Part shown: one piece after another, positions 8,788 through 44,670 of the stretch
Position numbering within the stretch: the stretch's first letter is position 1
Layout: every line of letters starts with the position of its first letter
From: Acidobacteriota bacterium
GTDB lineage: Bacteria > Acidobacteriota > Vicinamibacteria > Vicinamibacterales > JAKQTR01
Direction of reading: 5' to 3'
Assembly (NCBI GenBank): GCA_026393755.1
Contig: JAPKZO010000028.1
Coordinates: 186,001-250,000, forward strand
DNA length: 64,000 nt
The notes under the pieces: model-generated
What the model saw: only the letters and a program-made list of their open reading frames with translations
Database searches by the model: none
Told to the model about the DNA's origin: nothing
Made by a program: the position numbers and the translations under genes

Positions 8788-8824
8788 TTGTCCCCACGAC
8801 GCACCGATAATTACTCCGGGAGTG
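8774..8824. repeat. Paired CACTCCCGGAGT palindromes forming a perfect 16-bp inverted repeat
   Basis: The left arm CACTCCCGGAGTAATT (8774-8789) and right arm AATTACTCCGGGAGTG (8809-8824) are exact reverse complements around a 19-base loop. The arms contain the stop codons of two convergent histidine kinase genes. The structure could act as a bidirectional terminator, although the T-run expected of intrinsic terminators is short. It is one copy of a family found across the window. Confidence 0.85.
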
Positions 8825-14447: not shown

Positions 14448-14555
14448 AATCACTCCCGGAGTGATTGCGGGCGGGCTAATCACTCCCGGAGTAATTACGA
14501 AATTGTAATCACTCCCGGAGTGATTGCGGGCGGGCTAATTACTCCGGGAGTGATT
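14448..14555. repeat. Four tandem CACTCCCGGAGT-type palindromes
   Basis: Copies lie at 14448-14466, 14478-14496, 14507-14525 and 14537-14555, each a near-perfect 19-bp palindrome of the form AATCACTCCCGGAGTGATT with A/G variation at the ends. The first and last pairs are separated by GCGGGCGGGCT and the middle pair by ACGAAATTGT-like sequence. The array sits between the divergent SpoIIE-type and fabZ-like genes and could affect either promoter. Confidence 0.9.
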
Positions 14556-17716: not shown

Positions 17717-19915
17717 CTATTTCAACTTCTCGACCGTGACCCCGCCCGGCCCGTACACCAGTCGGCGATCGGGCGTCCCGCGCTTCTGCGTGTCAAAGGC
17801 GACGCTCGCCAGCGTCCCGTTGCTGTACGTTTCCCACTTGTCTGGCTTGCCATTGCCAGTGGTGTCTTCTTCGGCGCGCGCCAGTGCGCCATTCTCGTAG
17901 ACTTCCCAGCGCGAGACCTTGCCGTCGCGGCGCGTCGAGATCTCCATGCGCGCGATCCCGCCGCCGGCGGCTTCAAATGCCCATGCGTCGACTCGCCCGT
18001 CATTGAACCGCGAGGACCCCACCTTCTCGAGCGCGCCGTCGGGAGTGTAGTACTCCCACCGGTCGATCACGCCATCGAAGTTCGTGTCGATCTCCATTCG
18101 GACCAGACGCGTGCCGTCCATGTGACTCCACACGTCGGTCTTCCCGTCCTTGTTCGTGTCGAACATGAGCAGTGTCAGCTTGCCCGTGTCCTTCTCGTAG
18201 ACCGCCTTCGCCGGGGGCGACCCGCCGGAACCACTGCGGCACGCGCCAGAAGCAAGTGCGCACGAAACGACAAGCGCGATCCCGATCGCGGCCGTGCAGG
18301 AGCGGATACCCGTGGCCCGGAATCTGGTCCCTGGACCCGGGGCGGTATGGTCCGGGGCGTGCGGTCTCTCCACCGTCGCCCGGTCGAAGAGAGGCGGATG
18401 GTTCTTCGGTGAAGTACGTCGGACCGCGATCGCGCACAACACGACGAACAGCGCGGCGTCGCCGGGAATCTGCAGACTGAACTCCACGATCTCCTGGAAG
18501 GCCATCGCGACAATTCCCGTCGTGGCGCCAACGCGAATCCAGTAACTGGTCCGATCGTCGTGGCCCTCGCGGAACCGTGCGATCACCTGCCACACGAAGA
18601 TGAGGATCAACAGTGCGGCCGGCACCGCGACGAAATAGCCGCCCTCGGTGAGCACCTGCAAGTAGTCGTTGTGCGCCTCACTGAAATGCAGGTAGGCCGC
18701 CAGAAACTGCTGCAGCAACGTGGTCGCCGTCCCGTACGTATTGAACCCTGTGCCAAACGCCGGGAACATCTGATGGATGCGCCACGCGTCCGTCCACGCA
18801 CCGGTGCGGCCCCCAAACTCCCAACCCACCTCGCCGAACCGCTGGCCGATCGCGTCAATCCCCGTCCAGCTGACGGCCGCCACGAATACGACCAGGAAGT
18901 ACGCGGCCAGCAGCCGGCCCTTCGTCGAGCCCGTCTGGTGACGCCACACACTGACGGCCGACAAGACGATCGCCAGCAGGAAGCACGAGATGCCACTGCG
19001 CGACAACGAGAGCGTCAGCGCGAGTCCCATCACAAGAACACTGAATCCGGTGAGCACCGCACGACTGGCAGCGGGCGTCGAAAACCAGCCGATCCGACTG
19101 CGCCAGTCCGGCGATATCCCCACCATGCCCTTGGCCACCTGCGACGCGAAGTAGCCAATCACCACCGGCAGCGCCAGCAGCATCCAACCCGCAAAATGGT
19201 TGCGGTTGATGAACGGCCCGAACGCCTGGAAGTACGTGTTCTCGGGCACCCAGAATCCGTACACCTTCCCGTTCCAGAGCGCCTTCTGGACAATGCCGAT
19301 CAAGGCCAGAACGACGCCGAGCACGGTGAGGCCCGGAGCGAACGCGCGGAGGTCCAGGCCGTTGAGACCGCGCTGCAATCCGAGCAGCAGCAGACCGAAT
19401 CCCACAACGAACACCAGACCCAGCAGCGTCTTGTCGGGATTGATGCTGATCGGATGAGTGATGGATTCTCGCGCCGGGGCGACAGGGGCGGACGTCCCGC
19501 CTTCGCCGGCTGACGGCAACAACGGCTTCGGCGGGGCAGGCGGGGTTTCTGCTTGTCGCTGCTGCGCCCGAAGCATCGCCTGCTGCTGCGCGGCCGCCCG
19601 GGTTTCCATGACGACGCCGAAGGCGTACGCCACGTCGTACTGTCGCAGGAACTCGTCGGTGGCCGGACTCATGCGCACGAGGGTCGCGCGGTCGACCGGA
19701 ATCAGCTGCGCGCCGATCGCAGCCGCAACGAGCAGGATGCCGAGAAGCAGCGCCCCTCCAGCTCGTCTCCGCACGCGCGGCACATGTCGCAACAAGCCCC
19801 ACACGCCCACGATCGCGCCAGCGGCGAGCAATGGCCAGTAGGCCCAGTCGTACACCGCGCCAAACGCCAGGGCCCCCCAGGCCACCATCACCAGCACGGG
19901 CACGGCCATGTTCAT
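17717..19915 (-). CDS. O-antigen ligase/polymerase-like membrane protein with lipoprotein-like C-terminal repeat domain
   Basis: Residues 1-520 form a polytopic membrane protein with about ten or more hydrophobic segments and a large extracytoplasmic loop. It contains [16 protein letters not shown] and [14 protein letters not shown], the conserved features of the Wzy/WaaL O-antigen ligase family. From residue 535 a second hydrophobic segment ends in LASGAC (Cys559), which looks exactly like a lipobox. About 170 residues follow with repeated DTNxDGxxDxW motifs (thrombospondin type 3/EF-hand-like acidic loops). Either this is a true fusion or a former lipoprotein gene has joined the ligase by loss of a stop codon. 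A GTG near 18380 could start the lipoprotein part. The ATG overlaps the epimerase stop codon (ATGA), so the two genes are coupled. Confidence 0.85.
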
Positions 19916-20919
19916 ATGCCGTAATACCCGCGGTACCACTCGACAAACCTCCGCACGCCCTCGCGGACGGGGGTGCCTGGCTTGAAGCCCACCCAGGCAT
20001 CCAGTTCGTCGGTGTTGGCAGAGGTGGCGGGCACGTCGCCCGGCTGCATGGGGAGATAGTGCCTCTCGGCCGTCTTGCCCAGAGCCTCCTCGAGCGCCGC
20101 GATGTAGTCGACGAGCGGCGTGGGCTGACTGTTGCCGATGTTGAAGACCCGGTAGGGCGCATTGCTCGTGGCCGGGTCAGGTGACGCGGTGTCGAAGGCG
20201 GGATTGGGCTCGGCCGGGCGATCGGCGACGCGGATGACGCCTTCGACGATGTCGTCGATGTACGTGAAGTCGCGCACCATCTGGCCGTGGTTGAAGACCT
20301 CGATGGGCCGCCCCTCGAGGATGGCCCTGGTAAACAGGAACAGCGCCATGTCCGGCCGGCCCCACGGGCCGTATACAGTGAAGAACCGGAGGCCCGTCGT
20401 CGGCAGCCTGAACAGATGGCTGTACGTGTGCGCCATCAACTCGTTCGCCTTCTTCGTAGCGGCGTACAGGCTGATCGGATGGTCGATGCTGTCGTGTTCC
20501 GAGAACGGCATCCGCGTGTTGCCGCCATAGACGCTGGACGAGCTGGCGTACACGAGGTGGGCCACGTTTGCGTGGCGGCAGCCCTCGAGTATGTTCACGA
20601 ATCCGGCGAGGTTGCTGTCGACATAGACATGGGGGTTCGCCAGTGAGTAACGAACGCCCGCCTGGGCCGCCAGGTGCACGACGCGTTCCGGCTGCTGCTC
20701 GTTGAACATCGCGGCCATGCCGTCACGATCCGCGACGTCCAGCTTGACGAAGCGGAACCCCGGCTGGCTTGTCAGGCGGGCCAGCCGCGCCTGCTTGAGC
20801 GACACGTCGTAGTACTGGTTGAGGTTATCGAGTCCGATAACCGTGTCGCCGCGCGCCAGCAGCCGGAGCGCAACGTGGGAACCGATAAAGCCGGCCGCGC
20901 CGGTGACGAGGATGTTCAC
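19912..20919 (-). CDS. NAD-dependent epimerase, UDP-glucuronate 4-epimerase-like
   Basis: This 335-residue extended short-chain dehydrogenase has the N-terminal Rossmann motif [10 protein letters not shown] and the [13 protein letters not shown] segment typical of UDP-glucuronate 4-epimerases. The catalytic Ser is in YASSSSVYG, the YxxxK motif is YAATK, and the substrate region is [15 protein letters not shown]. It would interconvert UDP-glucuronate and UDP-galacturonate for polysaccharide synthesis. The downstream ligase-like gene starts within its stop codon. The upstream S26-type peptidase ends nine bases before it, so it could also be carried on the peptide-cluster transcript. Confidence 0.9.
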
Positions 20920-20928
20920 GGGATGATC

Positions 20929-21438
20929 TTATTCCCTATTCGATTGAGCCTTCTCAGGTGGAACATCACTCCCCGAGTGATTCTTCCGTCGCAGTTGCCA
21001 CAGAGGCCGTGTGAGCTGGAGGAGTAGCGGCCCCAGGGGGCTCGTCCGCGCCCACGCGATCCCGGCGAGACGCCAGAGGCCGCGGTCCAGGTGATGCACA
21101 CGGCCGTGGCGCCAGACCGTGGTGACCACGCCCAACGCGGCGTTCGGGGCAAACGGTCCTTCGCAATGCGGCTGGGCATCGCCACGAAGAACGAATGTCC
21201 CGCCGCCCTGCATTCGAACGACGCGGTGCAACACGTAGCGCTCTGACGTATCCGGTGGAGCCGCTTGCACCAGCACCATGTCCCCTAACCGGAGCCCGCC
21301 GGCGGGCTTGAGTTCCACGACGTCTTCGTTGCGGAGGAAGGGCCACATGCTGGTGCCGGTCACCGTCATCTTTACCCGTTGACCGCGTTCCAGTGCGGCG
21401 CGAACAACCGGCATGAAGTCGCGGCTGGGGAGAATCAC
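20929..21438 (-). CDS. S24/S26-family signal peptidase-like protease (Ser/His type)
   Basis: The GTG at 21438 overlaps the stop of the HprK-like gene (GTGA), giving 169 residues. The catalytic Ser region is TVTGTSMWPFLRNEDVV (Ser30). The second box is RYVLHRVV (His71), with His where bacterial signal peptidase I has Lys, followed by VLRGDAQP (Asp87). This Ser-His arrangement is that of SipW/ER-type S26B enzymes. No strong transmembrane anchor is visible. The position at the end of the peptide cluster makes it a candidate leader peptidase. Residues NHSGSD near the C-terminus are encoded by a palindromic repeat copy (20965-20982). Confidence 0.83.
   Translation of the reverse strand: MILPSRDFMPVVRAALERGQRVKMTVTGTSMWPFLRNEDVVELKPAGGLRLGDMVLVQAAPPDTSERYVLHRVVRMQGGGTFVLRGDAQPHCEGPFAPNAALGVVTTVWRHGRVHHLDRGLWRLAGIAWARTSPLGPLLLQLTRPLWQLRRKNHSGSDVPPEKAQSNRE
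20965..20982. repeat. CACTCCCCGAGTG palindrome inside the S26-type peptidase gene
   Basis: ATCACTCCCCGAGTGATT is a single copy of the window-wide palindrome family with one central change. It lies within the coding sequence close to the 3' end of the peptidase gene. Confidence 0.75.
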
Positions 21439-22325
21439 AAGATCGATCGCACCAGCGAAATGACCGCCCCCTCCGGGCGGCAGCGCAACCGATACACGGG
21501 CACGCGCGCCAGGATCGTGTTGAGATTCGCCATCGCGCGCTGCATCAGCGCGGCGTCCCAATACGGCAGGAATGCGCGAGCCATCAACAGTGGTGCTGCG
21601 GCCGCCGGAGCCAGCGGTTGAATGGCGTTCTCGGACGCCTGTTCGAGCACGATCAGCGCCGCCAGCGGTGCGGCGTGGTTGCGGGCAATTTCGGCCGTGC
21701 CGCCCCATGGCGTGCCGTAACACACCGGGCCGCCGGCCTCCACGCGCACGGCGATGCGATCGTCGTTCATCGCCACGACGCCCGGCTCGTGACTCCACAG
21801 GCCGACCTGCGTGCTCTTGCCCGCTCCGGAATGCCCGATGAAGACGATGCCCTTGCCGTTGTCGTCGAGGCCGGAGGAATGAAGGACCAGCCCGCCGCTT
21901 GAGAGGATGGCGGTACGAAAGATCAGTTCGCCCGCGCCGAGGTTGAGCAGGCTCTGCCAGCCCAGACCGCTGCGATGTTCCGTCAGGATCGCGTCGTCCC
22001 ACGCGCGGTTCGCGCGAAGCAGGCCCTGCACGGGCACCGATTGGCCCTGGTTCTCGTAGGCGAGCGTGGCGCAGAAATCCGAGCCCGCGCGGTACATCTT
22101 CCAGATGGAGCCCGGGTCGTAGATCAGCTCGCCCTGCGGGGCGGGAGGGTTCTTGCTGTCTTCCCAACGCAGCGCCACGCGGGATAGCGGATTCTCAAGC
22201 GCGCCCTCTTCTGCGCGGAACGGACCGAGCCGCCCTTCGATACCCAGTTCGACCGCGGAAAGTGGGCTGGTCAACTCAATCAAGAGGTTGGCGATGCGGA
22301 TCGGGATGTTATGCGGGGTGGCCAT
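21435..22325 (-). CDS. HprK-like serine kinase of a peptide-modification system
   Basis: This protein of about 296 residues has the P-loop GHSGAGKST (164-172) preceded by a LxxSG strand, and a downstream MNDDRIAV acidic motif, as in HPr kinase C-terminal domains. It is not a standard HPrK: there is no HPrK signature region and no ptsH nearby. HprK-related kinases occur with PqqD-like proteins (the so-called HPr-rel-A system) and in lasso peptide clusters such as paeninodin, where they phosphorylate the precursor's C-terminal Ser. The ATG at 22325 is preceded by AAGGA and overlaps the end of the radical SAM gene by 17 bases. Coupling to the next gene is through GTGA. Confidence 0.85.
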   Translation of the reverse strand: MATPHNIPIRIANLLIELTSPLSAVELGIEGRLGPFRAEEGALENPLSRVALRWEDSKNPPAPQGELIYDPGSIWKMYRAGSDFCATLAYENQGQSVPVQGLLRANRAWDDAILTEHRSGLGWQSLLNLGAGELIFRTAILSSGGLVLHSSGLDDNGKGIVFIGHSGAGKSTQVGLWSHEPGVVAMNDDRIAVRVEAGGPVCYGTPWGGTAEIARNHAAPLAALIVLEQASENAIQPLAPAAAAPLLMARAFLPYWDAALMQRAMANLNTILARVPVYRLRCRPEGAVISLVRSIL

Positions 22326-23391
22326 AGCGGTCCTTGCGCGCGCGGGCGATGTCACACAGATAGGGCACGGGTTCAGTCAGGGTGCCGGTTTCCAGCTTCG
22401 ACCACGCCGGGCAGGTTGGGCAAAAGCCGCGCACGTCGCACGCCAGGCAGAGCGGCGCCTGTGGCGGCGCAGAATCGACAAAGCGCTGCACCTGCTCCCA
22501 CGCTGCGAGAAAACCGATCTCAAGCGGACGAGCCGCGGGCAAGGGCAGGTCGATACACGCATTCATTTCGCCCTGCGGATTGATGATAAAGGCGGCCTGG
22601 CCAGCCTGACAGAAAAAGCTGCGACCACTACTTGAAGACGACTCGCGCAAAGCGGTCTCGGTCCACTCGGTCGCGGATGCGCGGTCGGTCGCTTCGAGCG
22701 CAACACAGTCCGAGGCAGAGAGGCGGCAATCGGCAACCCCCGACATCGCGCCGTCGCGCCGGGTGGAGAGCAGCCAGCCTCCAGAGAACGGCAGTCCCCA
22801 GTTGTGCGCCATCTGCCGCATGGCGTCCAGTTCGTCCACGTTCTGGCGCGTCACCGTGGTCTTCAGGCCGAGCGGGACGCGACGCTTGACGAGCGCTTCG
22901 ATGCCGGCGCAACAGCGGGCGTAGCTGCCGGGGACGCCCGTGACCGCTTCATAAGTGGCAGTGGTCGCGCCGTAGATCGTGATTTCGGTGCGGCTGGGGG
23001 GCGCGTCCGCCAGGCGCGCGGCCAGTGCATCGGTGATGAGCGTGCCGTTGGTGAACAGGGTGAGGATGAGACCCATCCGCGTGAGCGGGGTGTACAGCTC
23101 GAAGAAATCGGGGCGCAGCAACACCTCGCCGCCGGTGAGCAACAGAAAGACCATGCCGTTGTCCACGGCCTGATGTGCCAGGTCCAGCCATTGGCTCGCC
23201 GAAAGTTCTCTGGCTTTCCGCGCCACATCGCCGGCCGATTGGCAGACGTAGCACATGCGGCAGCCCAGATTGCAGCGCTCGGTCAACTCGAACGTGCCGT
23301 TGACTGGCTGACGCTCGGCGGCGGCGCGGCGCTGGAGTTCGCGCACCAGCGGGCCGTAATCTGTCGGAAGCGCTGCGCTCACCGTGGTCAT
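22309..23391 (-). CDS. Radical SAM enzyme with SPASM-type C-terminal Cys region
   Basis: The 360-residue protein has the radical SAM cluster motif CNLGCRMC (Cys40, 44, 47), the LLTGGEVLLRPDF motif for SAM binding and a LTLFTNGT strand. The C-terminal third has a SPASM-like Cys set: FFCQAGQ, MNACIDLP, CLACDVRGFCPTC and PYLC. These would bind auxiliary Fe-S clusters. Enzymes of this class modify ribosomal peptides, for example by forming thioether or carbon-carbon cross-links. The ATG overlaps the stop of the PqqD-like gene (ATGA), so the chaperone and enzyme are made together. The targets are probably the two peptides encoded just upstream. Confidence 0.92.
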   Translation of the reverse strand: MTTVSAALPTDYGPLVRELQRRAAAERQPVNGTFELTERCNLGCRMCYVCQSAGDVARKARELSASQWLDLAHQAVDNGMVFLLLTGGEVLLRPDFFELYTPLTRMGLILTLFTNGTLITDALAARLADAPPSRTEITIYGATTATYEAVTGVPGSYARCCAGIEALVKRRVPLGLKTTVTRQNVDELDAMRQMAHNWGLPFSGGWLLSTRRDGAMSGVADCRLSASDCVALEATDRASATEWTETALRESSSSSGRSFFCQAGQAAFIINPQGEMNACIDLPLPAARPLEIGFLAAWEQVQRFVDSAPPQAPLCLACDVRGFCPTCPAWSKLETGTLTEPVPYLCDIARARKDRYGHPA

Positions 23392-23654
23392 CGTTCCAGC
23401 AGGCCTAATCGTGTCATCTCGCCGACAAACGTCTGCACATCGGCGCGGGCCGTGGCGTCTGAGACGGCAAACCGTTCAGCCACGGCGGCGACCAAATCGT
23501 CCATTGAGCGCTCTTCTGCCAGCCGTTCCCACACGCAGGCCCCCGTCTCGTTCAACGTGAGAAGGCCATTCAGGTTCATGACTTGCGCGCCGAGCGGCAC
23601 GAGCAGGCGCTCCCCGCCGACCTGTTGCATCATGAAGTCTGCTTTACGTTTCAC
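23388..23654 (-). CDS. PqqD-like peptide chaperone (RiPP recognition element)
   Basis: This 88-residue protein fits the PqqD family: an N-terminal beta hairpin (GGERLLVPLGAQVMNLN), then GLLTLNETGACVWERL, corresponding to the family's LNxxGxxIWxLL motif, and helices ending in LGLLER. PqqD-like domains bind the leader of a precursor peptide and present it to the radical SAM enzyme. I chose the GTG at 23654 because AGGAG lies six bases upstream and it gives the usual length. The open frame further upstream has no family similarity. It overlaps the radical SAM gene by four bases. Confidence 0.88.
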   Translation of the reverse strand: MKRKADFMMQQVGGERLLVPLGAQVMNLNGLLTLNETGACVWERLAEERSMDDLVAAVAERFAVSDATARADVQTFVGEMTRLGLLER

Positions 23655-23840
23655 TGAATTCTCCTGATCGTGTCTTGTCCTTGCGGCTCGACGGGGTCCA
23701 GTAGAACTTCGGGGTCGGAAGCAAGCGTGGTTTCTTCCGGCGGCCGCTTCTCCAAGCAAGGCGGATCTGTCGGGATTCCCGTGGCCCGACTACACTCAGC
23801 AGCCCGCACTGAAGGCCAGAGGGTCGCAAGCCAGCAGGGC

Positions 23841-24047
23841 CTAACTGCCGGAAGGGGATCCACTGCAACTGGGACCTGGGCGTTTGCCGCTGTCACCGCC
23901 GCCAGCACTGGGCTGCTTGGCGCATGTCAACAGTCGCTCCTCAAGCTTGAGAGGAACAAACGTCGCCTCCGGCGGCTCGTAGGTCAACTTCTCCGCGACG
24001 GGCGTCCCGCTCTGCGGCGTGGTCGCGGGTGGGTTCTGTTGTTTCAT
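23841..24047 (-). CDS. Candidate RiPP precursor peptide B (68 residues)
   Basis: The predicted peptide begins MKQQNPPATTPQSGTP and continues with a segment containing TYEPPEATFVPLKLEERLL and then Cys. The first 42 residues are closely similar to those of peptide A at 24288-24479, with identity across the FVPLKLEERLL block. The remainder (26 residues) is a Gly/Ser/Pro-rich core with one more Cys, unrelated to the A core, and ends in SPSGS. A conserved leader with a divergent tail is the usual pattern of RiPP precursors. The ATG is preceded by an AGAGAGAAGA sequence shared with gene A. The PqqD-like gene starts about 185 bases downstream. No experimental family is recognised. Confidence 0.72.
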   Translation of the reverse strand: MKQQNPPATTPQSGTPVAEKLTYEPPEATFVPLKLEERLLTCAKQPSAGGGDSGKRPGPSCSGSPSGS

Positions 24048-24086
24048 GGCTTCTTCTCTCTTTGAAATGCCTAGCGCGATAGACGA
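24048..24086 (-). promoter_or_regulatory. Conserved 5' leader of precursor gene B
   Basis: The bases upstream of precursor B match those upstream of precursor A (24480-24518) in two blocks: TTCAAAGAGAGAAGA close to the ATG and CTATCGCG about 30 bases upstream. The purine-rich block probably contains the ribosome-binding site. Confidence 0.55.
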
Positions 24087-24287
24087 AGCGCGCGCACTCC
24101 TTGTTGTGTTGAGGTGTTCATTTCGGCGCAACAGCGCCTGATCGAGTGAACGGGCCGGGGTCGGGAAACGGGCCATTCTTGCCGCCACCGCACGTCCGGC
24201 CGCGGGTGCGGCGGCTGCCCTGTTCGAACGCCTGTTCGCCTGCGGTGCGTGTTGGGTCCACAGGCGGTAAACGGGGTAAGGGGCGGC

Positions 24288-24479
24288 CTAGCTCTTGTTC
24301 TGCTGATTCTGCGGATGGCCCTCGTGACCAAAACAGATATCCATCGACTTATCGCAGACGAGCAGTCTCTCCTCAAGCTTGAGAGGGACAAAAGTTGCCT
24401 TGGGTGCCTCATACGACAACTTCTGTGTGCCGGGTGTCCCGCTCTGCGGTGCGGTCCGGGGTGTGTTTTCCTGCTTCAT
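24288..24479 (-). CDS. Candidate RiPP precursor peptide A (63 residues)
   Basis: The peptide begins MKQENTPRTAPQSGTP and carries the segment SYEAPKATFVPLKLEERLL followed by VC. This matches peptide B at 23841-24047. After the shared Cys the C-terminal 21 residues (DKSMDICFGHEGHPQNQQ and so on, ending in NKS) differ completely from B and contain a second Cys seven residues after the first. The last residue is Ser, as in B. The gene lies between the ABC exporter and the maturation genes, all on the same strand. The leader block probably binds the PqqD-like protein. I do not recognise a named precursor family. Confidence 0.75.
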   Translation of the reverse strand: MKQENTPRTAPQSGTPGTQKLSYEAPKATFVPLKLEERLLVCDKSMDICFGHEGHPQNQQNKS

Positions 24480-24518
24480 AGTGTCTTCTCTCTTTGAATT
24501 ACCGATCGCGATAGCAGG
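24480..24518 (-). promoter_or_regulatory. Conserved 5' leader of precursor gene A
   Basis: This stretch shares TTCAAAGAGAGAAGA and CTATCGCG with the leader of precursor B. The match outside the coding sequence suggests that gene and control region were duplicated together. Confidence 0.55.
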
Positions 24519-24725
24519 GGCGCTGGTAGCGCCCTTCCACGGTCTAGAACTTCCAGATCAGACAGTCTTCCATCTCAGACGATATCCGCCATTCGCCGTA
24601 CGTGTCAAACCAACAGCCTCTTCTCGCCGTGAGTACGAACGGCTGTAAAGCATTGACTGCACAAACGATACCTGATGTTCCGTTCGGTAACACTGACTGC
24701 GTCAGCCCGCGGCGGCAACCGGGCT

Positions 24726-24800
24726 ATCACTCCCGGAGTAATTAGCCCCATCGCAATCACTCCGGGAGTAATTAGCCCCACCGCAATCACTCCGGGAGTG
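24726..24800. repeat. Three tandem CACTCCCGGAGT-type palindromes
   Basis: Copies at 24726-24743, 24755-24773 and 24785-24800 are separated by TAGCCCC(A/C)TCGC-like spacers. They lie between the exporter gene and precursor gene A, where they could act as a terminator or RNA-processing site that separates exporter from precursor expression. Confidence 0.88.
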
Positions 24801-24818
24801 GGACGTGAGCAGCGGTCT

Positions 24819-26642
24819 TCACTGGTCCCGGTAGTGCTGCGCCTGCGCCCGGTAGAGCCGCGCGTAGTGCCCGTTGCTCTCGAGGAGCACCGCATGCCGC
24901 CCCTTCTCGACGATCCGGCCCTGGTCCATCACGTAGATGCAGTCGGCCATCTGCACGGTGGAGAGGCGATGGCTGATGATGATGGCGCTGCGTCCGCCCA
25001 GGAGCTCGCGAAACTGGCCGAGTAGCTCGGCTTCGGCGAGAGGATCGAGTGCGCTGGAGGGCTCGTCGAGAATCAGAACGCGCGCGTCACGCCAGAACGC
25101 GCGCCCCATCGCGATCCGTTGCCACTCGCCCTCGCTGAGCTCCTGTCCCTCCCGAAACCAGCGGCCGAGCAGCGTGTCGTAGCCGAGAGGCAGGCGGCCG
25201 ACGACCGAGTCGGCGCCGGAGCGGCGGCCAACTTCCGCGATGCGCACAGCGTCGGGAGGTGTCGCGACGTCGCCAAGCCAGATGTTCTCTTTGGCGGTTA
25301 GCGCGTAGTGCGCGTAATCCTGGAAGGCCGCGCTGATCTGGCGCCGCCACTGGACGGGATCGAGATCGCGCAGGTCGATGCCGTCCACCGTGACGGCTCC
25401 GCGTGTCGGATCGTACAGCCGGCAGAGCAGCTTGATGAGCGTGGTCTTGCCCGATCCGTTCTCCCCGACAAGTGCGACGACTTCCCCCGGCGCCACCGTC
25501 ACGTCGATGTGTTCCAGCGTGTCCGAAGCATGACTTGGATAGCGGAACGCAACGTCATGAAAGCTGATGCCGCGGGTCATCGGCTCTGGTACGGCCTTCG
25601 GCTGATGTGGGGCGGCAACGTTCGGCACGAGGTCGAGAAATCGATAGAGATTCGTGAGGAACAGGTTGTCTTCGTACAGCCCCGCCAGCGAGCGCAGCAC
25701 GGCCTGCAGCAGTGAGAGGCCTGTCTGGAATCCGATGTAGTACACCGCCAGGTCGCCCAGGGTGACGGCGCCGCGAATCGTCTGGAGCGCGATCCAGGCG
25801 AGCGAGCCGAAGAGGGCGGCAATCGCCACGATCTGCGCGAAAAGATCAGTCACGATCCGGTAGCGGGCGAGGGTGAGCGTCCCGGTACGGATGGCCCGGC
25901 GCAGGTCCTGGTAGCGCGACCGGAACAGCGCGCCCAGGTCGAAGATGCGCAATTCCTTCGCGTGGCGCATCTCGGTCATCACCGTGTGGTAGTACCACGC
26001 CCGGCGTTCCTGCTCTGTCTGTGCCTGCTGCAGGCCGAAGAGCCGGCGCGAGTACATCAGGCGGGCGAACGCACCAGGCAGGACTCCGATGAACAGGGCG
26101 GCGGCCAGCAGCCAGTTCAGCGAGATCAGCCAGGCCGCGATGCCGGCGAGCGCCAGGCCGTTCTGCGCGATCTGAATCAGGCCGTTGACGATGCGCGAGG
26201 GGCGATAGGGCGCTTCGCCTTGGGCGCGGTGCAGCGTGTCGTAGTAGGAGGGATCTTCGTAGTACGCCAGGTCCACCGCGATGGACTGCGCGTGCAGGAT
26301 CTCCGCCACCGCGTCGGTCACTTGCAGCGACTGCGCCTCCGTGGCGTATTCGGTGAGCAGGCGCGTGAGCGCGGTGAGAAGCGCGACGCCGGCGGCAATC
26401 AGGATCCAGAGGAACACCCCGTGGACGAGTTCTGGCCGGCCCGGCGCGCCGACCGTGGCTGAGACCGCGTCCAGGATGCGCTTCATCACATAGAGCGCCG
26501 CCAGAGGCAATCCACCTTGCACGACCACGAGTGCGGCGTTGGCAAGCGTCCACCGCGGCGCCGTCTGCCAGACCAGGTGCAGGGCGCGGCCCAGCCGGAA
26601 TGCGGCCTGGATGCGCTGGCGGGGAGTGGGTCGTGCTGACAT
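24819..26642 (-). CDS. ABC exporter, fused membrane and ATPase domains, no C39 peptidase
   Basis: The protein has about 607 residues. An N-terminal six-helix membrane domain (about 1-330) is followed by the ATPase with Walker [10 protein letters not shown], signature LSEGEWQR (a variant of LSGGQ), Walker [13 protein letters not shown] and a switch His in IIISHRLS. As a half-transporter it should form a homodimer. No C39 peptidase domain is fused to the N-terminus, so leader removal would need a separate protease. The ATG at 26642 is preferred to the TTG at 26657. It lies 18 bases after the nucleotidyltransferase stop codon and is codirectional with the precursor genes, so it is the likely peptide exporter. 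Confidence 0.9.
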
Positions 26643-26660
26643 GAGTGGTGAGGCCAACTC

Positions 26661-27806
26661 TCAGATCTCTCCCGATACCTTGAAGTGCACGATGTGCTTC
26701 AGGCGCAGTTGCCAGATTCGCCACAATGGCGCATTCGGCAGGTCGTAGCGCAACTGCAGCCAGTGGCGATCGCGGAACACCGCGCGCCACACGAGCTTGA
26801 AGGCGCTGGCAGGGCGATCGACCAGCAGCAGCAGCAGCAGGAATCGCTTCGGACCGCCGCTCAGCTGTCTCGCTTCCACGAGTTCGCGCGTAGAAGCGAG
26901 TCGCTTCAGGAGTGATTGGCGCAACGAAGAAGGCGCGAGATCCGCCAGGGGCAACTCGTTGTCGGGGTCGCCAAACAGCTCCGCCAGGGCGTGAAGCACA
27001 ACCCATGTCGCGCATGACACCCGCCAGGCGCGCGCACGTTCGGCAACCGTTCGCCAGTCGATCGCCCATGCCTGGCGCGCGACGTCCAGGTCCAGCAGTG
27101 TTCGGAGCCCGCCGTCCGACATCTTGTGAGTGACGGCGAGATGGATACAGTTGTGGATGACGGCGTCTTCGTGCGAGAGGCCGCGTGGGCCGGTTCCCTC
27201 GCGCGCGAGCGCCCGTTGCCAGATAGCGTCCTCGTCTATGCGTGCGGTGTGTCGCACCCACTCGCCCGGAAAGATCTTCCAGTGGAGCTCGACCAGTGGT
27301 GCGTGCTCCTTGGACATCTGCGTTTCGCCTGTCAATGCGGCCTGCCACGCGTAGTCCCCGCCGGCCTCGGAAGGTGGGGCATAGCCGAGAGACTCCATCG
27401 CCGAGCGCGCCGCCTCGATGTGCTCGCGCCGCACCCACAAGTCGAGATCCGCCATCGGGCGCAGGGCGATGTCGCCGTAAGCCGTTCTTGCGAGGCTCGC
27501 GCCCTTGAAGGGAACCACCTGGATGCCCGCGGCCTCAAAGGCGCCCAGGATTTTGGCGAGTTCATCAAACAGGCGCACGTTGCGCGCGGCGCTCACGAGG
27601 TAGGCCTGTCGCAGTCGTGCCGCAGTTGGCGGCGGCGGGACCACGTCGCGTTCTTTCAAGCGCGCATACGCGACGGGCACGACGTCGTGATGCTTCGCCA
27701 GCGCGAGCAGGCGTTCCCACTCCGCCTCACTCAGGTTCTGCTCCACCTCGGCGCTCTTCGCGAGCACCGCGACGAGGCGCTGGCCGTCAGGATTGATCTC
27801 GGTCAT
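26661..27806 (-). CDS. Nucleotidyltransferase family protein (NTP_transf_5 type)
   Basis: The 381-residue protein carries the minimal nucleotidyltransferase core, with PFKGASLARTAYGD, a conserved LRPMADLDLWV strand with paired Asp, and later ELHWKIFP and a helical HNCIHLAVTHK region. This matches the family represented by PF14907. Such proteins occur in exopolysaccharide/HprK clusters. In the pseudomycoidin lasso peptide pathway the nucleotidyltransferase PsmN acts after the kinase PsmK at the C-terminal Ser. Here it is the first gene of the putative peptide operon and faces the divergent DUF218 gene across about 100 bases. Its substrate is inferred only from context. Confidence 0.83.
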   Translation of the reverse strand: MTEINPDGQRLVAVLAKSAEVEQNLSEAEWERLLALAKHHDVVPVAYARLKERDVVPPPPTAARLRQAYLVSAARNVRLFDELAKILGAFEAAGIQVVPFKGASLARTAYGDIALRPMADLDLWVRREHIEAARSAMESLGYAPPSEAGGDYAWQAALTGETQMSKEHAPLVELHWKIFPGEWVRHTARIDEDAIWQRALAREGTGPRGLSHEDAVIHNCIHLAVTHKMSDGGLRTLLDLDVARQAWAIDWRTVAERARAWRVSCATWVVLHALAELFGDPDNELPLADLAPSSLRQSLLKRLASTRELVEARQLSGGPKRFLLLLLLVDRPASAFKLVWRAVFRDRHWLQLRYDLPNAPLWRIWQLRLKHIVHFKVSGEI

Positions 27807-27912: not shown

Positions 27913-28482
27913 ATGAAGAAGATTGTCTTGTTGTTGATCGCGTGCCCGGTAGCTCTGATCTTGATCGCCGCGCTCGCTTTCTGGCTGACCGACGCCCCAC
28001 TTCGGGCCGCGTCCGACTATCTCGAAGTCTTGGATCCTCCCGAGAAGGCCGATGTCATCGTCGTCCTCGGCACTGGCGACGGCCCCAGGCTCGAATGGGC
28101 CGCCCAGCTCTATGCGCGGGGGCTCGCCCCCACGATCCTCCTCACCGGCTACGCCAACTATCCGCCGGCCAACGACTTTGCCCGGGCCCATGGAATGTCG
28201 CCGGAGACAGTCATCCGCGAGCGCAACTCCACGACCACCTATACCAACGCCACGCTCTCGGCGCCGATTCTGCGTCGTCTTGGCGCGCGCAAGGTGATCC
28301 TGGTCACGTCCTGGTACCACTCCCGCCGCGCCCTGCAGACGTTTCGCAAAGTCGTGCCCGACATTCGGTATGTTTCAATCCCCGCGTCGCGCGATTCGGA
28401 AGCAGTCAGCCGGACAAAGATCGCCAAGGAACTGATTGGCATGGCCGGCTATTGTCTCTGGCGCGGGATCGCGCCGTGGTGA
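27913..28482 (+). CDS. DUF218 family membrane protein (SanA/YdcF/ElyC-like)
   Basis: The protein has one N-terminal TM segment (about residues 4-26) and a DUF218 domain with the core motifs ADVIVVLGTG, GLAPTILLTGY, ERNSTTTYTNA and VILVTSWYHSRRAL. Family members such as SanA and ElyC affect envelope integrity and polysaccharide carrier metabolism. The biochemical activity is not firmly known. It is the only plus-strand gene in this part of the locus and is divergent from the nucleotidyltransferase. The WecG-like gene ends convergently 20 bases after it. Confidence 0.85.
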   Translation: MKKIVLLLIACPVALILIAALAFWLTDAPLRAASDYLEVLDPPEKADVIVVLGTGDGPRLEWAAQLYARGLAPTILLTGYANYPPANDFARAHGMSPETVIRERNSTTTYTNATLSAPILRRLGARKVILVTSWYHSRRALQTFRKVVPDIRYVSIPASRDSEAVSRTKIAKELIGMAGYCLWRGIAPW

Positions 28483-28501
28483 CGGACCGAATCGGAGGTC
28501 G

Positions 28502-29260
28502 TCAACGCTGCACTCTGGCCCGCAGCACGGCGAACATAAACACCGGCGCCGAAATGAACATTCGCCGCCACAACCGTCGGGGCTGTTGAAGCAGCCTCGG
28601 CAGCCACTCCAACCCCAGCTTCTGAAACGCTGGATGGGAGCGCTTCACGCGCCCGGTATAGAACTCGAACACCGCCCCGATCGCCCCGGCGAACTTCACG
28701 TTCAATCGGGCGCGATTCTCATATATCCACTTTTCCTGCTTCGGAGCCGTCATCCCCACCCACAACACATCCGGCGCTGTGGTGTTCACCGCATCGACCA
28801 TTGCGTCCAGTTCGGCGGGCGAATAGGCCGGTTTGAACGGGGGCGAATAGGTCCCGGTCACTCGCACGGCCGGGTAATCTCTCGCCATCCGCGCCCGAAT
28901 CAAGGCCAGCGTCTCCTCGGTTGATCCCAGGAAGAACACACTCATGCCACCGGCGGCATTCATGCGCCGATGTAGTTCGCGGAACACGTCCGAGCCTGTC
29001 ACCCTTTCCCGAATGCCGCCCCCCAGCAGGCGCGACGCCAGCACGATTCCGGCACCGTCCGGCGCCAGCCAGTCTGCGTCCTGCAGTGCCCGACTGAACA
29101 GCTCATCATTCCGTGCCACCGCGTACGAGTGCGGGTTCAGGCAGGCTAGCCAGACGCAGCCTCTGGGACTGCCGGGACTCCGGAGAACCGCGAACAGGCT
29201 GTCCGCGCATTGGTCCACCGAGTGGTCATCCACTCCGTAGCCAAGGATGTCCTCTTTCAT
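28502..29260 (-). CDS. WecG/TagA/CpsF family glycosyltransferase
   Basis: This 252-residue protein matches the TagA/WecG family (GT26). It has a LNPHSYAVAR motif with the substrate-binding Asn, ADWLAPDGAGIV with the catalytic-type Asp, VFFLGSTEE, and a VGMTAPKQEKW motif. Family enzymes transfer N-acetylmannosamine, N-acetylmannosaminuronate or glucose onto lipid-linked sugar early in polysaccharide assembly. It would act after the WecA-like domain at 37521-39569. The gene is 12 bases downstream of a GT4 gene, which suggests a shared transcript. Confidence 0.9.
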   Translation of the reverse strand: MKEDILGYGVDDHSVDQCADSLFAVLRSPGSPRGCVWLACLNPHSYAVARNDELFSRALQDADWLAPDGAGIVLASRLLGGGIRERVTGSDVFRELHRRMNAAGGMSVFFLGSTEETLALIRARMARDYPAVRVTGTYSPPFKPAYSPAELDAMVDAVNTTAPDVLWVGMTAPKQEKWIYENRARLNVKFAGAIGAVFEFYTGRVKRSHPAFQKLGLEWLPRLLQQPRRLWRRMFISAPVFMFAVLRARVQR

Positions 29261-29272
29261 ACCGGGAACGCT

Positions 29273-30469
29273 CTAGGCCGCCCTGCGAGACACGTCGATG
29301 GCACGCCGATAGATTTCCATCAGTGTCGAGTAGTTCGCTTCTTCCGTGTACTTCGCTTCGAACTCGGCCCGCGCGCCGTGGCCCAGCCGTTCCAGCAAGC
29401 CAGGTGTCTGCCAGGCCGTCCGCACGGCACTCAGCAGAGACTCAGGATTCGCGGGCTCGAACACCACGCCGCTTTCGCCAGTGCGAACGATGCCGGGCAA
29501 CGGCCCCAGATTCGAGACAGCCGCCGGCGTGCCAAAGGCAAACGCCTCGCGCACCACCATGGGAAAGCCCTCGAAGCATTCCGACGGCAGCACCAGCAAA
29601 CGCGCTGCCGCGATCTGCGCCTGCGCCTCGGCGGCCGGCACCTGGCCCAGGAACCGAACCGGCAGCCCCTCTGCCATGCGCTCTAATTCCGGCCGCAATT
29701 CACCGTCCCCAACCACGCGCAACTCCGGCGGATCCGGGCCCCAAGCTGCCCATGCTCGCAACAAACCCGCGACCCCCTTCTCCGCCTTCAGGCGACCGAC
29801 AAAGACCACATGGGGCGCCCGCTCGTGCCAGGGCTGCACGCGCGGCATCCCTGGATAAAAGTTCGGCTTCACGTGTACTTTCTCCAGCGGCAGACCGGAA
29901 TCAGCCATCCGCTGCCGTTGGAACTCAGAGAGCGCAATGAAGCCATCCACGTGTTTCGCCCAAGTGCCCGTCACCCGGTGCAGACCAACGCTGAACGCCA
30001 GCGGCAATGTGGCAACGCGGCTCCCTCGATAGCAGCCGTGTCTCAGCGCTGGCCAGGGCGTATGCACGTCGAGACAGTCGGTGCACACCCGTCCCGCACG
30101 CATCGGAATGCCTGCGGCACAGAACAGCCGGTAGTTGTGCAGCGTCAGGACCCGTGCAGCGCGATGGCCGATAGCGTGAAAGATCCCCGGCGAAATCAAC
30201 GGAAACGTGTTGTGCACATGGACCACGTCGGGCTTGAAGCGTTCAACAGCCAGCCGCACGGCATGTGTCATCCACGGGTTCCACGGTGTCGCCAGCGCGC
30301 CTTTCACCGCTCCCCACCCGCCCTGGTCGCGAATCTCGTCGCTCTCGCGGGTGAAGGTCTCCACCTCATGGCCACGGCCCTGCAGCAACGCCTTCTCGGC
30401 CTCGAAGACCTGGTTTTCGCCTGATGGGGCGGATGAACCGTAGAGGTTGTGGACCAAAAGAACTTTCAC
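29273..30469 (-). CDS. GT4-family glycosyltransferase
   Basis: The 398-residue protein is a GT-B retaining glycosyltransferase. The N-terminal domain begins KVLLVHNLYGSSAPSGENQ, and VHVHNTFPL is a typical acceptor-domain motif. The C-terminal domain has VVFVGRLKAEKG and the nucleotide-sugar motif PSECFEGFPMVVREAFAFG, matching the E(x)7E signature. It transfers a hexose or similar sugar to the growing exopolysaccharide repeat at the cytoplasmic membrane face. The exact sugar cannot be predicted. It is part of the minus-strand polysaccharide operon. Confidence 0.9.
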   Translation of the reverse strand: MKVLLVHNLYGSSAPSGENQVFEAEKALLQGRGHEVETFTRESDEIRDQGGWGAVKGALATPWNPWMTHAVRLAVERFKPDVVHVHNTFPLISPGIFHAIGHRAARVLTLHNYRLFCAAGIPMRAGRVCTDCLDVHTPWPALRHGCYRGSRVATLPLAFSVGLHRVTGTWAKHVDGFIALSEFQRQRMADSGLPLEKVHVKPNFYPGMPRVQPWHERAPHVVFVGRLKAEKGVAGLLRAWAAWGPDPPELRVVGDGELRPELERMAEGLPVRFLGQVPAAEAQAQIAAARLLVLPSECFEGFPMVVREAFAFGTPAAVSNLGPLPGIVRTGESGVVFEPANPESLLSAVRTAWQTPGLLERLGHGARAEFEAKYTEEANYSTLMEIYRRAIDVSRRAA

Positions 30470-30507
30470 CGTTCAGTCCCGTGACCTCAAACGTGAGCGC
30501 TCTTTGT

Positions 30508-31599
30508 TCATGTGAACACCTCCTCCAAGTGTTGGCGCATGATCGTCTCCCAGCCGAAGCGGTCCCGGCAGGCCAGGGCGCGCTTCGCGATCGCCGCCAG
30601 TTCGTCCCGCCGCCCGTCGAGGCTGAGAAGCATCTCGACGAGTTCGTCCTCCGTGTCGAACAGGAAGCCGTTTTCCCCATGCACGATGACGTCCTCGGCC
30701 ACGCCAACACGCCGGGTCAGGACCACTCGCCCGAGAACAAGCGGCTCCACGATGCAGTGGCCGAACGTCTCGACGTTGGTCGGCACAACGGCGCACTGCG
30801 ACCGCAGGTACCACCCGACCATCTCTTCCCTGTTGAGGAACCCCGGAAAGATCACTCTCCCCTCCAGGCCAAGGTGCCGGGCGAGACTGCGGCAGCCCTC
30901 GAGTTGCGCGCCCGCCCCGGGCAGCACGAGTTCGGCGCCACGATCGCTCGACGCCGACACGAACTTCGCGAAGGCCCGGATCAGCAAATCCTGGTTCTTC
31001 CCGCTGCGAAATTCGCCCGGGAAGACGAATCGAAGTGGGACCGAAAAATCCGGCGGCGGGACTTCGCGAAAGAACAATTCGCTCTCGCCAAGGGGAATAA
31101 CGCGAATCTGCTTGCGGATGGCTCGAAAACGCCCCGCCAGGAAGCGCGACGGGGCGATCACGCGCCACGCAAAAAGCCACAGGGCCGCCCCGATGACGAG
31201 TCGGGCCACCACCGATCTGACGGGGTGGTTGTGGCGGAAGCCGTGGATCGTGTAGACGAGCCGCGGGCGCGGCCGCAATCGGGCCGCCGCGTGGACCGCA
31301 AGCGCGAGCTGCCAGTTGGTGTGCACCGAAACGTAATTGGGCCGGTGGAGCCTGATGAGCTCCGCCAGAGCGCGAGAGAGCCTGGCGAACTCTCCGTGGT
31401 CGTCGAGGCCAGGGATGATCGCGTGCACCCCACCCGCGCGACGTAACGTTTCGCCGAGCCCTTGATGCTGTTCCTTCTCTCCGGACACGAACACCCACGC
31501 GGCGTCCCCGACGGTGAGCGACGCTTGTGCCTGGGAGACGAGTTGATCGGTAACCCCGATGCGATGGGAGGAGACAAACTGGAGGATCTTCTTGGTCAT
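30508..31599 (-). CDS. GT4-family glycosyltransferase
   Basis: The ATG at 31599 gives about 363 residues starting MTKKILQFVSSHRIGVTDQ. An upstream TTG is less likely. The C-terminal Rossmann domain contains FVFPGEFRSGKNQDLL, VIFPGFLNREEMVGW and NVETFGHCIVEPLVLG, matching the GT4 E(x)7E motif. The N-terminal domain includes YVSVHTNWQLALAVHAA. Its sequence is only distantly similar to its neighbour at 29273-30469, so the two probably add different sugars. It belongs to the same polysaccharide operon. Confidence 0.87.
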   Translation of the reverse strand: MTKKILQFVSSHRIGVTDQLVSQAQASLTVGDAAWVFVSGEKEQHQGLGETLRRAGGVHAIIPGLDDHGEFARLSRALAELIRLHRPNYVSVHTNWQLALAVHAAARLRPRPRLVYTIHGFRHNHPVRSVVARLVIGAALWLFAWRVIAPSRFLAGRFRAIRKQIRVIPLGESELFFREVPPPDFSVPLRFVFPGEFRSGKNQDLLIRAFAKFVSASSDRGAELVLPGAGAQLEGCRSLARHLGLEGRVIFPGFLNREEMVGWYLRSQCAVVPTNVETFGHCIVEPLVLGRVVLTRRVGVAEDVIVHGENGFLFDTEDELVEMLLSLDGRRDELAAIAKRALACRDRFGWETIMRQHLEEVFT

Positions 31600-31659
31600 C
31601 TGGCGAATCGATCTGTGGAGCAATTCAGAAGATGGCAGACCGCGAGGGCAAAGGGGCCG

Positions 31660-32832
31660 TCATTGTCTCGCGCTGTTCGAGACCCGGTCGAAGAAGGCCA
31701 ATGTCGCGCCGGCGACGCGGTCCCAGGTTAGTCCCGCGCTCGCTGTCAGCGCCGCGTTTCGCGAGCTCCCACGCAGTTCGGGAGAGCCCATCAACTCGAG
31801 TAGCCGGGCGGCAATCCCCGCGCTGTCCCGCGGGCGAACCCAGAGCACGCCGAACGCATCATAGAACGACCGCGCCTCTGTGATCCCGTCAGTCAGGACG
31901 GTCGGCAGTCCGTGGAAGAGCGCCGCCAACGCGCTGCTGCTGTTGGATCCCACGCCGCCAGTGAACGGGTAGACTGCGGCATCGGCGCAATGCAGGCACG
32001 CGGAAACCTCCTCGCGCGACGGATCGGCGACAATGCGGACCCATCCGTCCTTGTCCACGTCGGCGAGCCGCCGCCGGATCGTCTCGTGGTAGCCCTCGTT
32101 GGTTCCGTCGGCGCGAAAACCTCCAAGCGCCATGAGAATCACGTTACGGGCCGACCGCCGCCGCGCCTCCGCCACGCCTTCGACCAGGTATTCGAAGCCC
32201 TTGACGCGGCCGATCCCACCGAAGAAAGCCACGACGAAGTCATCCAATGTGATCCCTCGCTCAGTGCGCCAGCGCTCCCGCAGCGCGACATCGTACGGGA
32301 TGGGAACGATGTTCGAGCAGATTTGGATGAACGCCATCCGGTGCGCCGACAGGCCACCGAAACGGCGCAACGGTTCGCGGTTGTGCTCGTCGACAAGCAC
32401 GATGCCAGACGATGCCCGCAACATCGGAATGGTGCGCAACCGGTAGAACAGAGATTGCTCCCAGAACCCGTGCATCGTCGTCACGACGGTGCACTGGGGC
32501 GCCGCAAGCCGGAGCGCGAGCGGCAGAATGTTGACCATTGGGTTGCGCCGGTACACCGAGGGGCAGTTGTACTGGATGTCGACGATCGGCGGCGCTCCGG
32601 AGCGGACCCGCCTCACCACCCGGCCGAGCTCGCGCATCGTCCACTGGTGCAGATCGCGTGTCACCGCAACCCCTGCTTGAGGGTCTTCCACGCCGTCGGC
32701 GAGACGGGTCGTCAGCACCTCCACGGCGACGCCCCTTCCGGCCAGCGCCGCAGCAAGATGCGAGGAATAGTCGCCTACCCCGGTGTGCCGCGGAGGGTAA
32801 TCGCCGGTAACGATGACGACACGACGACTCAC
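31660..32832 (-). CDS. Glycosyltransferase, GT4-like
   Basis: This 390-residue protein opens with RRVVIVTGDYPPRHTGVGDY, characteristic of the acceptor domain of GT4 enzymes, followed by VDIQYNCPSVYRRNP and TTMHGFWEQS. The donor domain has VVAFFGGIGRVKGFEYLVEG and a terminal ALFHGLPTVLTDG region. The second Glu of the usual E(x)7E motif is not obvious, and a GSNSSSALAALFHG segment replaces it, so the donor pocket may differ. The GTG start overlaps the stop codon of the upstream Wzy-like gene (GTGA), implying translational coupling. Confidence 0.82.
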   Translation of the reverse strand: MSRRVVIVTGDYPPRHTGVGDYSSHLAAALAGRGVAVEVLTTRLADGVEDPQAGVAVTRDLHQWTMRELGRVVRRVRSGAPPIVDIQYNCPSVYRRNPMVNILPLALRLAAPQCTVVTTMHGFWEQSLFYRLRTIPMLRASSGIVLVDEHNREPLRRFGGLSAHRMAFIQICSNIVPIPYDVALRERWRTERGITLDDFVVAFFGGIGRVKGFEYLVEGVAEARRRSARNVILMALGGFRADGTNEGYHETIRRRLADVDKDGWVRIVADPSREEVSACLHCADAAVYPFTGGVGSNSSSALAALFHGLPTVLTDGITEARSFYDAFGVLWVRPRDSAGIAARLLELMGSPELRGSSRNAALTASAGLTWDRVAGATLAFFDRVSNSARQ

Positions 32833-34046
32833 AATCCTCCCTCGTTTTGTTGCGTTCTGAGGGCGGCATAGCCGAGCCCGAGAATCGCGAACTGGAGGTT
32901 ACCGAAGAACGCGGCGTAGAGGAGGATGTTGTCGGTGAACATGAACAGGGCGAAGGAAACGAATGACGAAGCCCCGCTGAACAGGAGGATGCGAGCTTCG
33001 CCCGTGGCCCTCCTGGCATGCTTCAGCGTGTGGAGGGTTTGAGCCAGAAGGGTCAGAGCAAATATCGCTGCCCCCAGGTAGCCGTAGTCGTACGACAAGC
33101 GCAGCCAGTCATTGTGCGGATGCGTCAGGGCTCCCTTGGTCACATCAACGATTAACGACTCCGAGGCGTTTGCCCCATGTCCCAGCAAGGGTCTCTTGGC
33201 GATGGCCTCGTTCATTTCGACCCACATCGCACTTCGCCCCGTGGTTGCAAAATCGGCGTTGTCGGCGCGGATTTCCGCAAGGGTGCCGCTCCCGGAATAG
33301 AACATCTTTCGCTGAATGGGCTCAGTCTGAAAGACGGCGAAACCGGCCGAGGCAAGCACGACCAGCACGAGCAGCCGCCGCTTCAGACTCAGCGGCGCCA
33401 GCGTCAGGGGCAATGTCAGGAGGGCAACCGCAATGCCGGTCCGGGTCACCCCAACGACCGGGATGGCCGCCATCGGCACCCACCAGAGCAGCGCCTTCCT
33501 GTCCCCCAATGCAAAGCGCGTCGCCAACGTGGTACAGAGAAGCGCGGCTGTCATGACCAACGCCGCCAGATTGCTCGTCATCGGCAGCGCGCCGGTGGCG
33601 AGGATTGCGGTTCGTACCAGCGCAACAATCACGATGGCGATCTGCAGTGTGACCAGGTGACCGCGTGCGCGATCGAGATCGCTGGGGCAGATGCGGGCCC
33701 TCGACACGACGGCCCCGATTGCCAGGGGGCAGAACATCATGACGGATCGCTGGAACGCGTTCGGGTTGTCAGATACTGCCAGGTAGAGAACAACCAACCC
33801 GAGCCAGGGCATCCAGATCCCGACCGGAAAGGTGGTGTTGCCCGGCGTACCGATGGCGACCGCCAGAGCCCAGGCGAGCGGGACGACCCATGCCACGGCC
33901 GAGAGGGGGATCCCGGGCATCACTTCGCCAGGGATCATCGACAGACCCGTGCTGATCAGCACGACTGTGAGAAGCGACGAATTACTGCGCAACTGCGGCA
34001 TGGTGTCGGCGGTTGACGTGTGTGTGGGATTGTGACCGTATGCCAC
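32829..34046 (-). CDS. Wzy/O-antigen ligase-like membrane protein
   Basis: This 405-residue protein has about ten hydrophobic segments and one large loop with GRSAMWVEMNEAIAKRPLLG and LTHPHNDWLRLSYDYG. That HNDxL motif is the hallmark of the Wzy_C/O-antigen ligase fold. In this locus it most likely polymerises the repeat unit flipped by the adjacent Wzx. The GTG at 34046 is chosen because GAGGAA lies about eight bases upstream. An ATG at 34001 is an alternative. It is 24 bases downstream of the flippase gene. A second, distinct protein of this fold is at 17717-19915. Confidence 0.87.
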   Translation of the reverse strand: MAYGHNPTHTSTADTMPQLRSNSSLLTVVLISTGLSMIPGEVMPGIPLSAVAWVVPLAWALAVAIGTPGNTTFPVGIWMPWLGLVVLYLAVSDNPNAFQRSVMMFCPLAIGAVVSRARICPSDLDRARGHLVTLQIAIVIVALVRTAILATGALPMTSNLAALVMTAALLCTTLATRFALGDRKALLWWVPMAAIPVVGVTRTGIAVALLTLPLTLAPLSLKRRLLVLVVLASAGFAVFQTEPIQRKMFYSGSGTLAEIRADNADFATTGRSAMWVEMNEAIAKRPLLGHGANASESLIVDVTKGALTHPHNDWLRLSYDYGYLGAAIFALTLLAQTLHTLKHARRATGEARILLFSGASSFVSFALFMFTDNILLYAAFFGNLQFAILGLGYAALRTQQNEGGL

Positions 34047-44621: not shown

Positions 44622-44670
44622 AATCACTCCCGGAGTAATTGGCCCGCCGCTAATTACTCCCGGAGTGATT
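44622..44670. repeat. Pair of CACTCCCGGAGT-type palindromes
   Basis: Copies at 44622-44640 and 44652-44670 are separated by GGCCCGCCGCT. They mark the junction between the polysaccharide locus and the accessory region. Confidence 0.88.

Follow-up and report, generated by a model that had tools for sequence, protein, structure and literature searches.

Linear polyphosphorylated peptides (LPPs), a RiPP family reported by Popov et al. (Nat Commun, May 2026) and described as restricted to Bacillota, are encoded by genes that often lie in capsule loci (PMC13381572). In this family, the S26 enzyme cleaves off leaders together with its RRE, and mutation of the triad of the LPP S26 enzyme LppS (S29/H68/D93) kills LppS; the words 'radical SAM', 'rSAM' and 'SPASM' are absent from the LPP text (PMC13381572). 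Kinases of lasso peptide systems phosphorylate the C-terminal Ser, which is extremely conserved there, and PsmN puts a hexose on the phospho-Ser (PMC9266682). LppK and BsfK phosphorylate the core residue Ser3, not the last residue (LppK: PMC13381572; BsfK: PMC10368454). The closest known system to the gene cassette described here is the LPP family, with five gene types in common. According to the initial annotation, no described pathway with exactly this gene set was known. Our literature search found no paper describing the set with a radical SAM enzyme, or describing radical SAM modification together with the (poly)phosphorylation of a peptide; the statement has to be corrected in that LPP clusters, which lack only the radical SAM enzyme of this set, come close (PMC13381572).

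The cassette occupies positions 20929-27806 of the window, which is the whole 64,000-nt stretch of DNA analysed. Its eight genes, initially annotated as codirectional, all lie on the minus strand, and their domains were borne out by Pfam and NCBIfam searches. The features, named by their predicted functions, are given below in the order of transcription, with a predicted promoter in its place.

26661-27806, minus strand: NTP_transf_5 nucleotidyltransferase (NTase), 381 aa; PF14907, E = 1.9e-60; sole copy in the genome
24819-26657, minus strand: MsbA-like ABC exporter, at most 612 aa; start TTG at 26657, alternative ATG at 26642
24579-24608, minus strand: predicted sigma-70-like promoter, TTGACA-18-TATCGT, about 100 bp 5' of precursor A; consensus match only
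24288-24479, minus strand: precursor peptide A, 63 aa, ending in YEAPKATFVPLKLEERLLVCDKSMDICFGHEGHPQNQQNKS; homologues in L016-L019 and in divergent cassettes
23841-24047, minus strand: precursor peptide B, 68 aa, ending in YEPPEATFVPLKLEERLLTCAKQPSAGGGDSGKRPGPSCSGSPSGS; 176-nt tandem duplicate of A
23388-23654, minus strand: PqqD-type RiPP recognition element (RRE), 88 aa, GTG start; PF05402, E = 1.1e-16
22309-23391, minus strand: radical SAM/SPASM maturase (rSAM), 360 aa; PF04055, E = 1.4e-17
21435-22325, minus strand: HprK-like peptide kinase, 296 aa; H149, G164, G167xG169K170S171T172, D188
20929-21438, minus strand: SipW-like S26 peptidase, 169 aa; E = 8e-5 to TIGR02228; Ser/His/Asp

The short overlaps that had been noted among the last four genes were read from the sequence as ATGA between the PqqD and rSAM genes, 17 nt between the rSAM and kinase genes, and GTGA between the kinase and S26 genes, the S26 start being the GTG at 21438. 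The PqqD gene starts with GTG at 23654, and AGGAGA lies just 5' of it. By ORF reading, a polysaccharide-type locus encloses the cassette (window positions 17717-20919 and 27913-34046), with O-antigen-ligase-like, NAD-epimerase, YdcF-like and WecG/TagA-like proteins and glycosyltransferases among the flanking ORFs. The window also holds a dispersed palindromic 18-mer, ATCACTCCSGGAGTRATT, for which 36 matches were counted on both strands against 0.04 expected. Its copies are mostly grouped at a spacing of about 29-38 nt (8771-8827, 14448-14555, 20964-20982, 24725-24803, 44622-44670, 46172-46219 and 55727-55775, with a variant at 43339-43394), and one trio falls in the gap that separates the ABC gene from precursor A.

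When the cassette was compared with LPP clusters, both were found to contain a SipW-like S26 leader peptidase, a discrete PqqD-type RRE, an HprK-like kinase, an NTP transferase and an MsbA-like exporter, and they also share a YxxP leader, one to three precursors and, often, surrounding polysaccharide genes. However, the two systems differ from each other. First, the window has a radical SAM/SPASM enzyme in addition, and its family has Cys-rich cores that mostly end in Ser. Second, the leader of the window family reads YxxP...LxxEExLL, whereas that of LPPs reads YxxPxVLxHQxIxFETxxS; when the LPP motif was sought in the family precursors, YxxP was present and the remainder, HQxIxFETxxS, was absent. 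Third, LPPs have been called Bacillota-restricted, while the window set was found both within the phylum of the window itself and among MAGs with other labels.

The best NCBIfam match of the PqqD protein is the lasso PqqD chaperone, and the RRE profile matched TbiB1, LppB (9x8z) and TfuB1 among PDB structures; by these profile matches, the window RRE is of the lasso/LPP type of discrete RRE. The radical SAM enzyme carries CxxxCxxC at C40/C44/C47 and SPASM cysteines at C261, C279, C315, C318, C324, C327 and C346, and both sets of cysteines are conserved among its homologues. A profile search of the PDB with this enzyme matched SkfB and PqqE. All the general features of a radical SAM/SPASM RiPP cluster are thus present, namely CxxxCxxC, SPASM cysteines, an RRE and an adjoining conserved precursor with a leader and a variable core.

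No Pfam model matched the kinase above cut-off, and its best NCBIfam scores were 28.7 bits for ScmC (cut-off 125) and 27.2 bits for HprK-related kinase B (cut-off 200). H149 and K170 are kept in 55 of 55 kinases, and the GxxGxGK(S/T) loop and the Asp are kept in nearly all. The structural model of the kinase (pLDDT 95.1) matches HprK/P structures with a probability of 0.97-1.00 and low TM-scores, and it also matches PEPCK, which is of the same fold as HprK/P. The motif of the window kinase agrees with the residue set H-G-G-G-K-S-D-D given for lasso kinases (PMC10368454). In the S26 peptidase, the catalytic residues S34, H75 and D91 are conserved (numbering begins 4 residues before the GTG), and the model matches signal peptidases and LexA-type domains. 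A close exporter homologue of the same profile was found in the L086 cassette (E = 2e-212 to the window exporter). For the NTP_transf_5 protein, we propose an LppN/PsmN-like role.

Precursors A and B, which are 76% identical, form a tandem duplication of 176 nt with a common AAAGAGAGAAG ribosome-binding region, and their cores differ. In the family, the leader shows YxxP, a hydrophobic stretch and (E/D)E..L, and the core, which usually holds 2-3 Cys, mostly opens with Cys or Cys-Lys about 20 residues past the leader Tyr. A search of 25 precursors against Pfam and NCBIfam models gave zero matches, and the precursor assignments at L092, L104, L118 and L119 are doubtful. The short Cys-containing peptides that had been taken for precursors proved to be conserved across cassettes of other genomes. 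A C-terminal Ser is present in 45 of 53 distinct precursors, a set partly picked by profile and by hand. In a scan whose candidates were selected on the leader and one Cys only, 44 of 55 candidates near a cassette ended in Ser, against 7 of 38 that lay elsewhere or on the opposite strand, and Ser made up 12% at other core positions. Other ends were found as well, namely Pro in the clade L087-L090, Val at L016/L109 and Thr at L019, and the kinase active-site residues are intact, where checkable, in these cassettes. Since 19 of the 44 Ser-ending cores contain an aromatic residue, cyclophane chemistry may be possible in some of them. At L109 (L016), a precursor lies between two PqqD genes (1013-1978) that are 61% and 75% identical to the window PqqD.

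A scan of genome contigs with the radical SAM enzyme yielded four contigs at 71-79% identity, from MAGs labelled WOR-3, 'bacterium', PVC group and archaeon. L016-L018 keep the order precursor-PqqD-rSAM-HprK-S26 with an NTase nearby, and L019 shows the first three genes (precursor, PqqD, rSAM), its contig ending inside the rSAM gene. Using a profile built from four kinases, kinase homologues were found in 44 of 297 genomes of the window's phylum and in 6 of 44 and 3 of 147 genomes of two other phyla. The same profile found none in 148 genomes of the phylum of L019, which says little because the L019 contig itself ends in the rSAM gene. Wider relatives of the radical SAM enzyme were found by profile in 79 of 247 genomes of the window's phylum, and the viral contigs contained zero relatives of the cassette.

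Loci were also picked by the kinase alone (n = 54), and their regions were scanned with a profile of each gene. Within 4 kb of the kinase, the radical SAM gene was found at all 54 loci, PqqD at 46, S26 at 43 and NTase at 22, while the far flank, more than 5 kb away and 295 kb in total, contained 0, 0, 2 and 3 of these genes, respectively. The co-occurrence of the radical SAM gene with the kinase exceeds chance. In addition, the pairwise distances of the kinase, rSAM, PqqD and S26 proteins correlate with r of 0.73-0.78, and the maximum in permutations (2000 each) was 0.22. ABC and NTase genes are absent near some of the kinase-anchored cassettes, and L086, from another phylum than the window, has all gene types, exporter and NTase included. 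The initial annotation had looked to the co-occurrence of homologues in other genomes as the mark of a system, and they do co-occur; the eight-gene set is a real, recurrent system. To look for a shared genomic context, Pfam families were counted in 74 proteins that flank other cassettes, and no common partner emerged (tRNA synthetase 4, NAD synthase 3, Wzz-type 3, glycosyltransferases 2 each). A polysaccharide setting was seen at the window, L110 and L066, and is not general among the cassettes.

Six loci (L141, L145, L149, L153, L154 and L155) form a sibling branch with PqqD, rSAM and very short precursors such as YERPAIIHTEKLEARAVACAKADDSCGAGPIQS. They were considered as a kinase-free control and have Ser/Thr-ending precursors, but the genomes of all six seemingly kinase-less cassettes have kinase homologues, which leaves the C-terminal Ser without a clean negative control. 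In three of the six, the homologue lies 6-11 kb off on the same contig. Kinases of the sibling branch are further off, and some genomes have two adjacent copies.

The genome of the window contains one kinase of the cassette type and one NTP_transf_5 gene. Only one other of 162 genomes in the window's order reached E 1e-20 with the kinase profile, while the nearest relatives of the cassette in the rSAM scan sit in other phyla, indicating that lateral transfer of the cassette is likely; misbinned contigs in the MAGs of the relatives are a possible alternative. Because the G+C content of the cassette (64.9%) resembles that of its flanks, any transfer was not recent by this measure.

The cassette might instead be an LPP cluster proper, in which phosphorylation near the core start is primary and the radical SAM enzyme is an accessory that could be dispensed with. 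The window contains every LPP core gene, and there are sets that run without radical SAM. Plasmid pNP243 of Butyrivibrio fibrisolvens (L181, 1-8571) carries such an LPP-like cluster, with an NTase, an ABC protein, an HprK-like kinase, a small YVKPEL Cys-rich Trp-ending peptide, PqqD, an S24/S26 peptidase and polysaccharide genes, its kinase and precursor being annotated merely as hypothetical proteins, and two Bacteroidota records have the kinase, S26 and PqqD. Since these sets lack radical SAM, the core is common, and possession of the radical SAM enzyme sets a large branch apart. However, the presence of the rSAM gene within 4 kb at 54 of 54 loci, together with the correlated divergence, indicates that it is no casual accessory, and the HQxIxFETxxS part of the LPP leader is absent. 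We consider it unlikely that the cassette is an LPP cluster in this strict sense.

SynChlorMet (NCBIfam TIGR04248-TIGR04251) is, by profile comparison, a second relative of the window set, both having an HprK-like kinase (ScmC), a PqqD-like protein (ScmD) and PqqE-like radical SAM proteins (ScmE/F). If the cassette were a member of this family, one could point to the match of 47 of 50 kinases to TIGR04249 (ScmC) at E<=1e-3 and to L066 and L117-L119, which have two or three rSAM genes. On the contrary, the window proteins score far under each of the four curated cut-offs (ScmC 28.7 of 125 bits, ScmD 18.6 of 100, ScmE 94.9 of 400, ScmF 81 of 400), and the window has one radical SAM gene rather than two and contains S26 and an exporter, so membership is quite unlikely. 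The SynChlorMet-like loci L066:4500-14000 and L117-L119 also contain PqqD, kinase and S26 genes, and a YxxP Cys peptide at L066:11254-11541 may be a precursor. Finally, a PQQ/mycofactocin-style cofactor or signal pathway, in which precursor, PqqD and rSAM would give rise to a small molecule and one of its intermediates would be the substrate of the kinase, is very unlikely. In its favour, models of PqqE and of the mycofactocin maturase hit the radical SAM protein, and considerable conservation is seen in many of the divergent cores. Against it, the paralogous precursors of the window differ in core, a leader peptidase and an exporter are present, and the flank families that recur most often include neither a dehydrogenase nor any other enzyme of small-molecule metabolism.

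Phosphorylated lasso peptides (paeninodin, pseudomycoidin, Bsf) share with the window an RRE, an HprK-like kinase, an NTase and, in the paeninodin type, a conserved C-terminal Ser. In contrast, the genome of the window has no B2 peptidase and the cassette has no cyclase, with S26 and radical SAM genes instead. The B2 model PF13471 gave zero matches in the whole genome and was positive in two control genomes, on which ground a lasso cluster was rejected, and the cyclase model PF00733 (asparagine-synthetase-like) gave zero matches among the eight proteins. These results agree with the initial annotation that no cyclase or transglutaminase-type protease is present, and its reading of the cluster as a radical SAM RiPP system that has a kinase and an NTase of the lasso type but lacks the lasso machinery is supported by the gene set and its recurrence. 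The kinship it suggested with HPr-rel-A did not hold, the kinase scoring 17.2 of 200 bits on TIGR04352 and PqqD 18.7 of 35 on TIGR04353. Sactipeptide and ranthipeptide maturases (SkfB, AlbA, PapB) likewise combine radical SAM/SPASM enzymes acting on Cys cores with an RRE, although their likeness to the window enzyme is at superfamily level only (PapB 51.7 bits of 340). To our knowledge, a kinase is no part of these systems. Given the conserved Cys, a thioether cross-link of the sactipeptide/ranthipeptide type is a plausible product of the window enzyme.

By analogy with these systems, the product is probably an LPP-like phosphorylated RiPP with an added radical SAM modification, the latter probably at cysteines and the phosphorylation probably at the C-terminal Ser. 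That the cluster makes a ribosomal peptide bearing two kinds of modification, by the full route that follows, appears likely to us. The PqqD protein would bind precursors A and B at the YxxP part of their leaders and hand them over to the modifying enzymes. The radical SAM/SPASM enzyme would modify the Cys-rich core, most likely forming thioether cross-links from the conserved Cys, and the HprK-like kinase would (poly)phosphorylate a core Ser, most likely the C-terminal one. In an optional step, the NTP_transf_5 protein may decorate this phosphate in the way that PsmN attaches a hexose. The SipW-like S26 peptidase would then cut off the leader, and the MsbA-like ABC protein would export the product. 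For the RRE, kinase, NTase and peptidase, we infer the roles from relatives that have been characterised, whereas our assignments of the radical SAM chemistry, of the phosphorylated residue in this family, of export and of any biological role are proposals from the genes. Since LppK and BsfK use core Ser3, the phosphosite in the window family is not fixed by homology, and the clade L087-L090, which ends in Pro, argues against a C-terminal site.

With this finding, the gene set of a RiPP family that was reported from Bacillota in 2026 is extended to other phyla, and radical SAM modification would be joined with a second chemistry, the (poly)phosphorylation of peptides. A broader picture, which we offer tentatively as slightly short of probable, is a widespread, undescribed RiPP class in several phyla, spread partly by lateral transfer, in which Cys would be cross-linked by a radical SAM/SPASM enzyme, the last Ser would be (poly)phosphorylated and perhaps hexosylated, and the leader would be removed by a SipW-like peptidase. 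With two precursors in the window, a conserved C-terminal Ser and the full gene set, the order of the steps is directly testable in E. coli. The family also suggests where precursors of SynChlorMet-like cassettes may be sought, for example in the YxxP peptide at L066.
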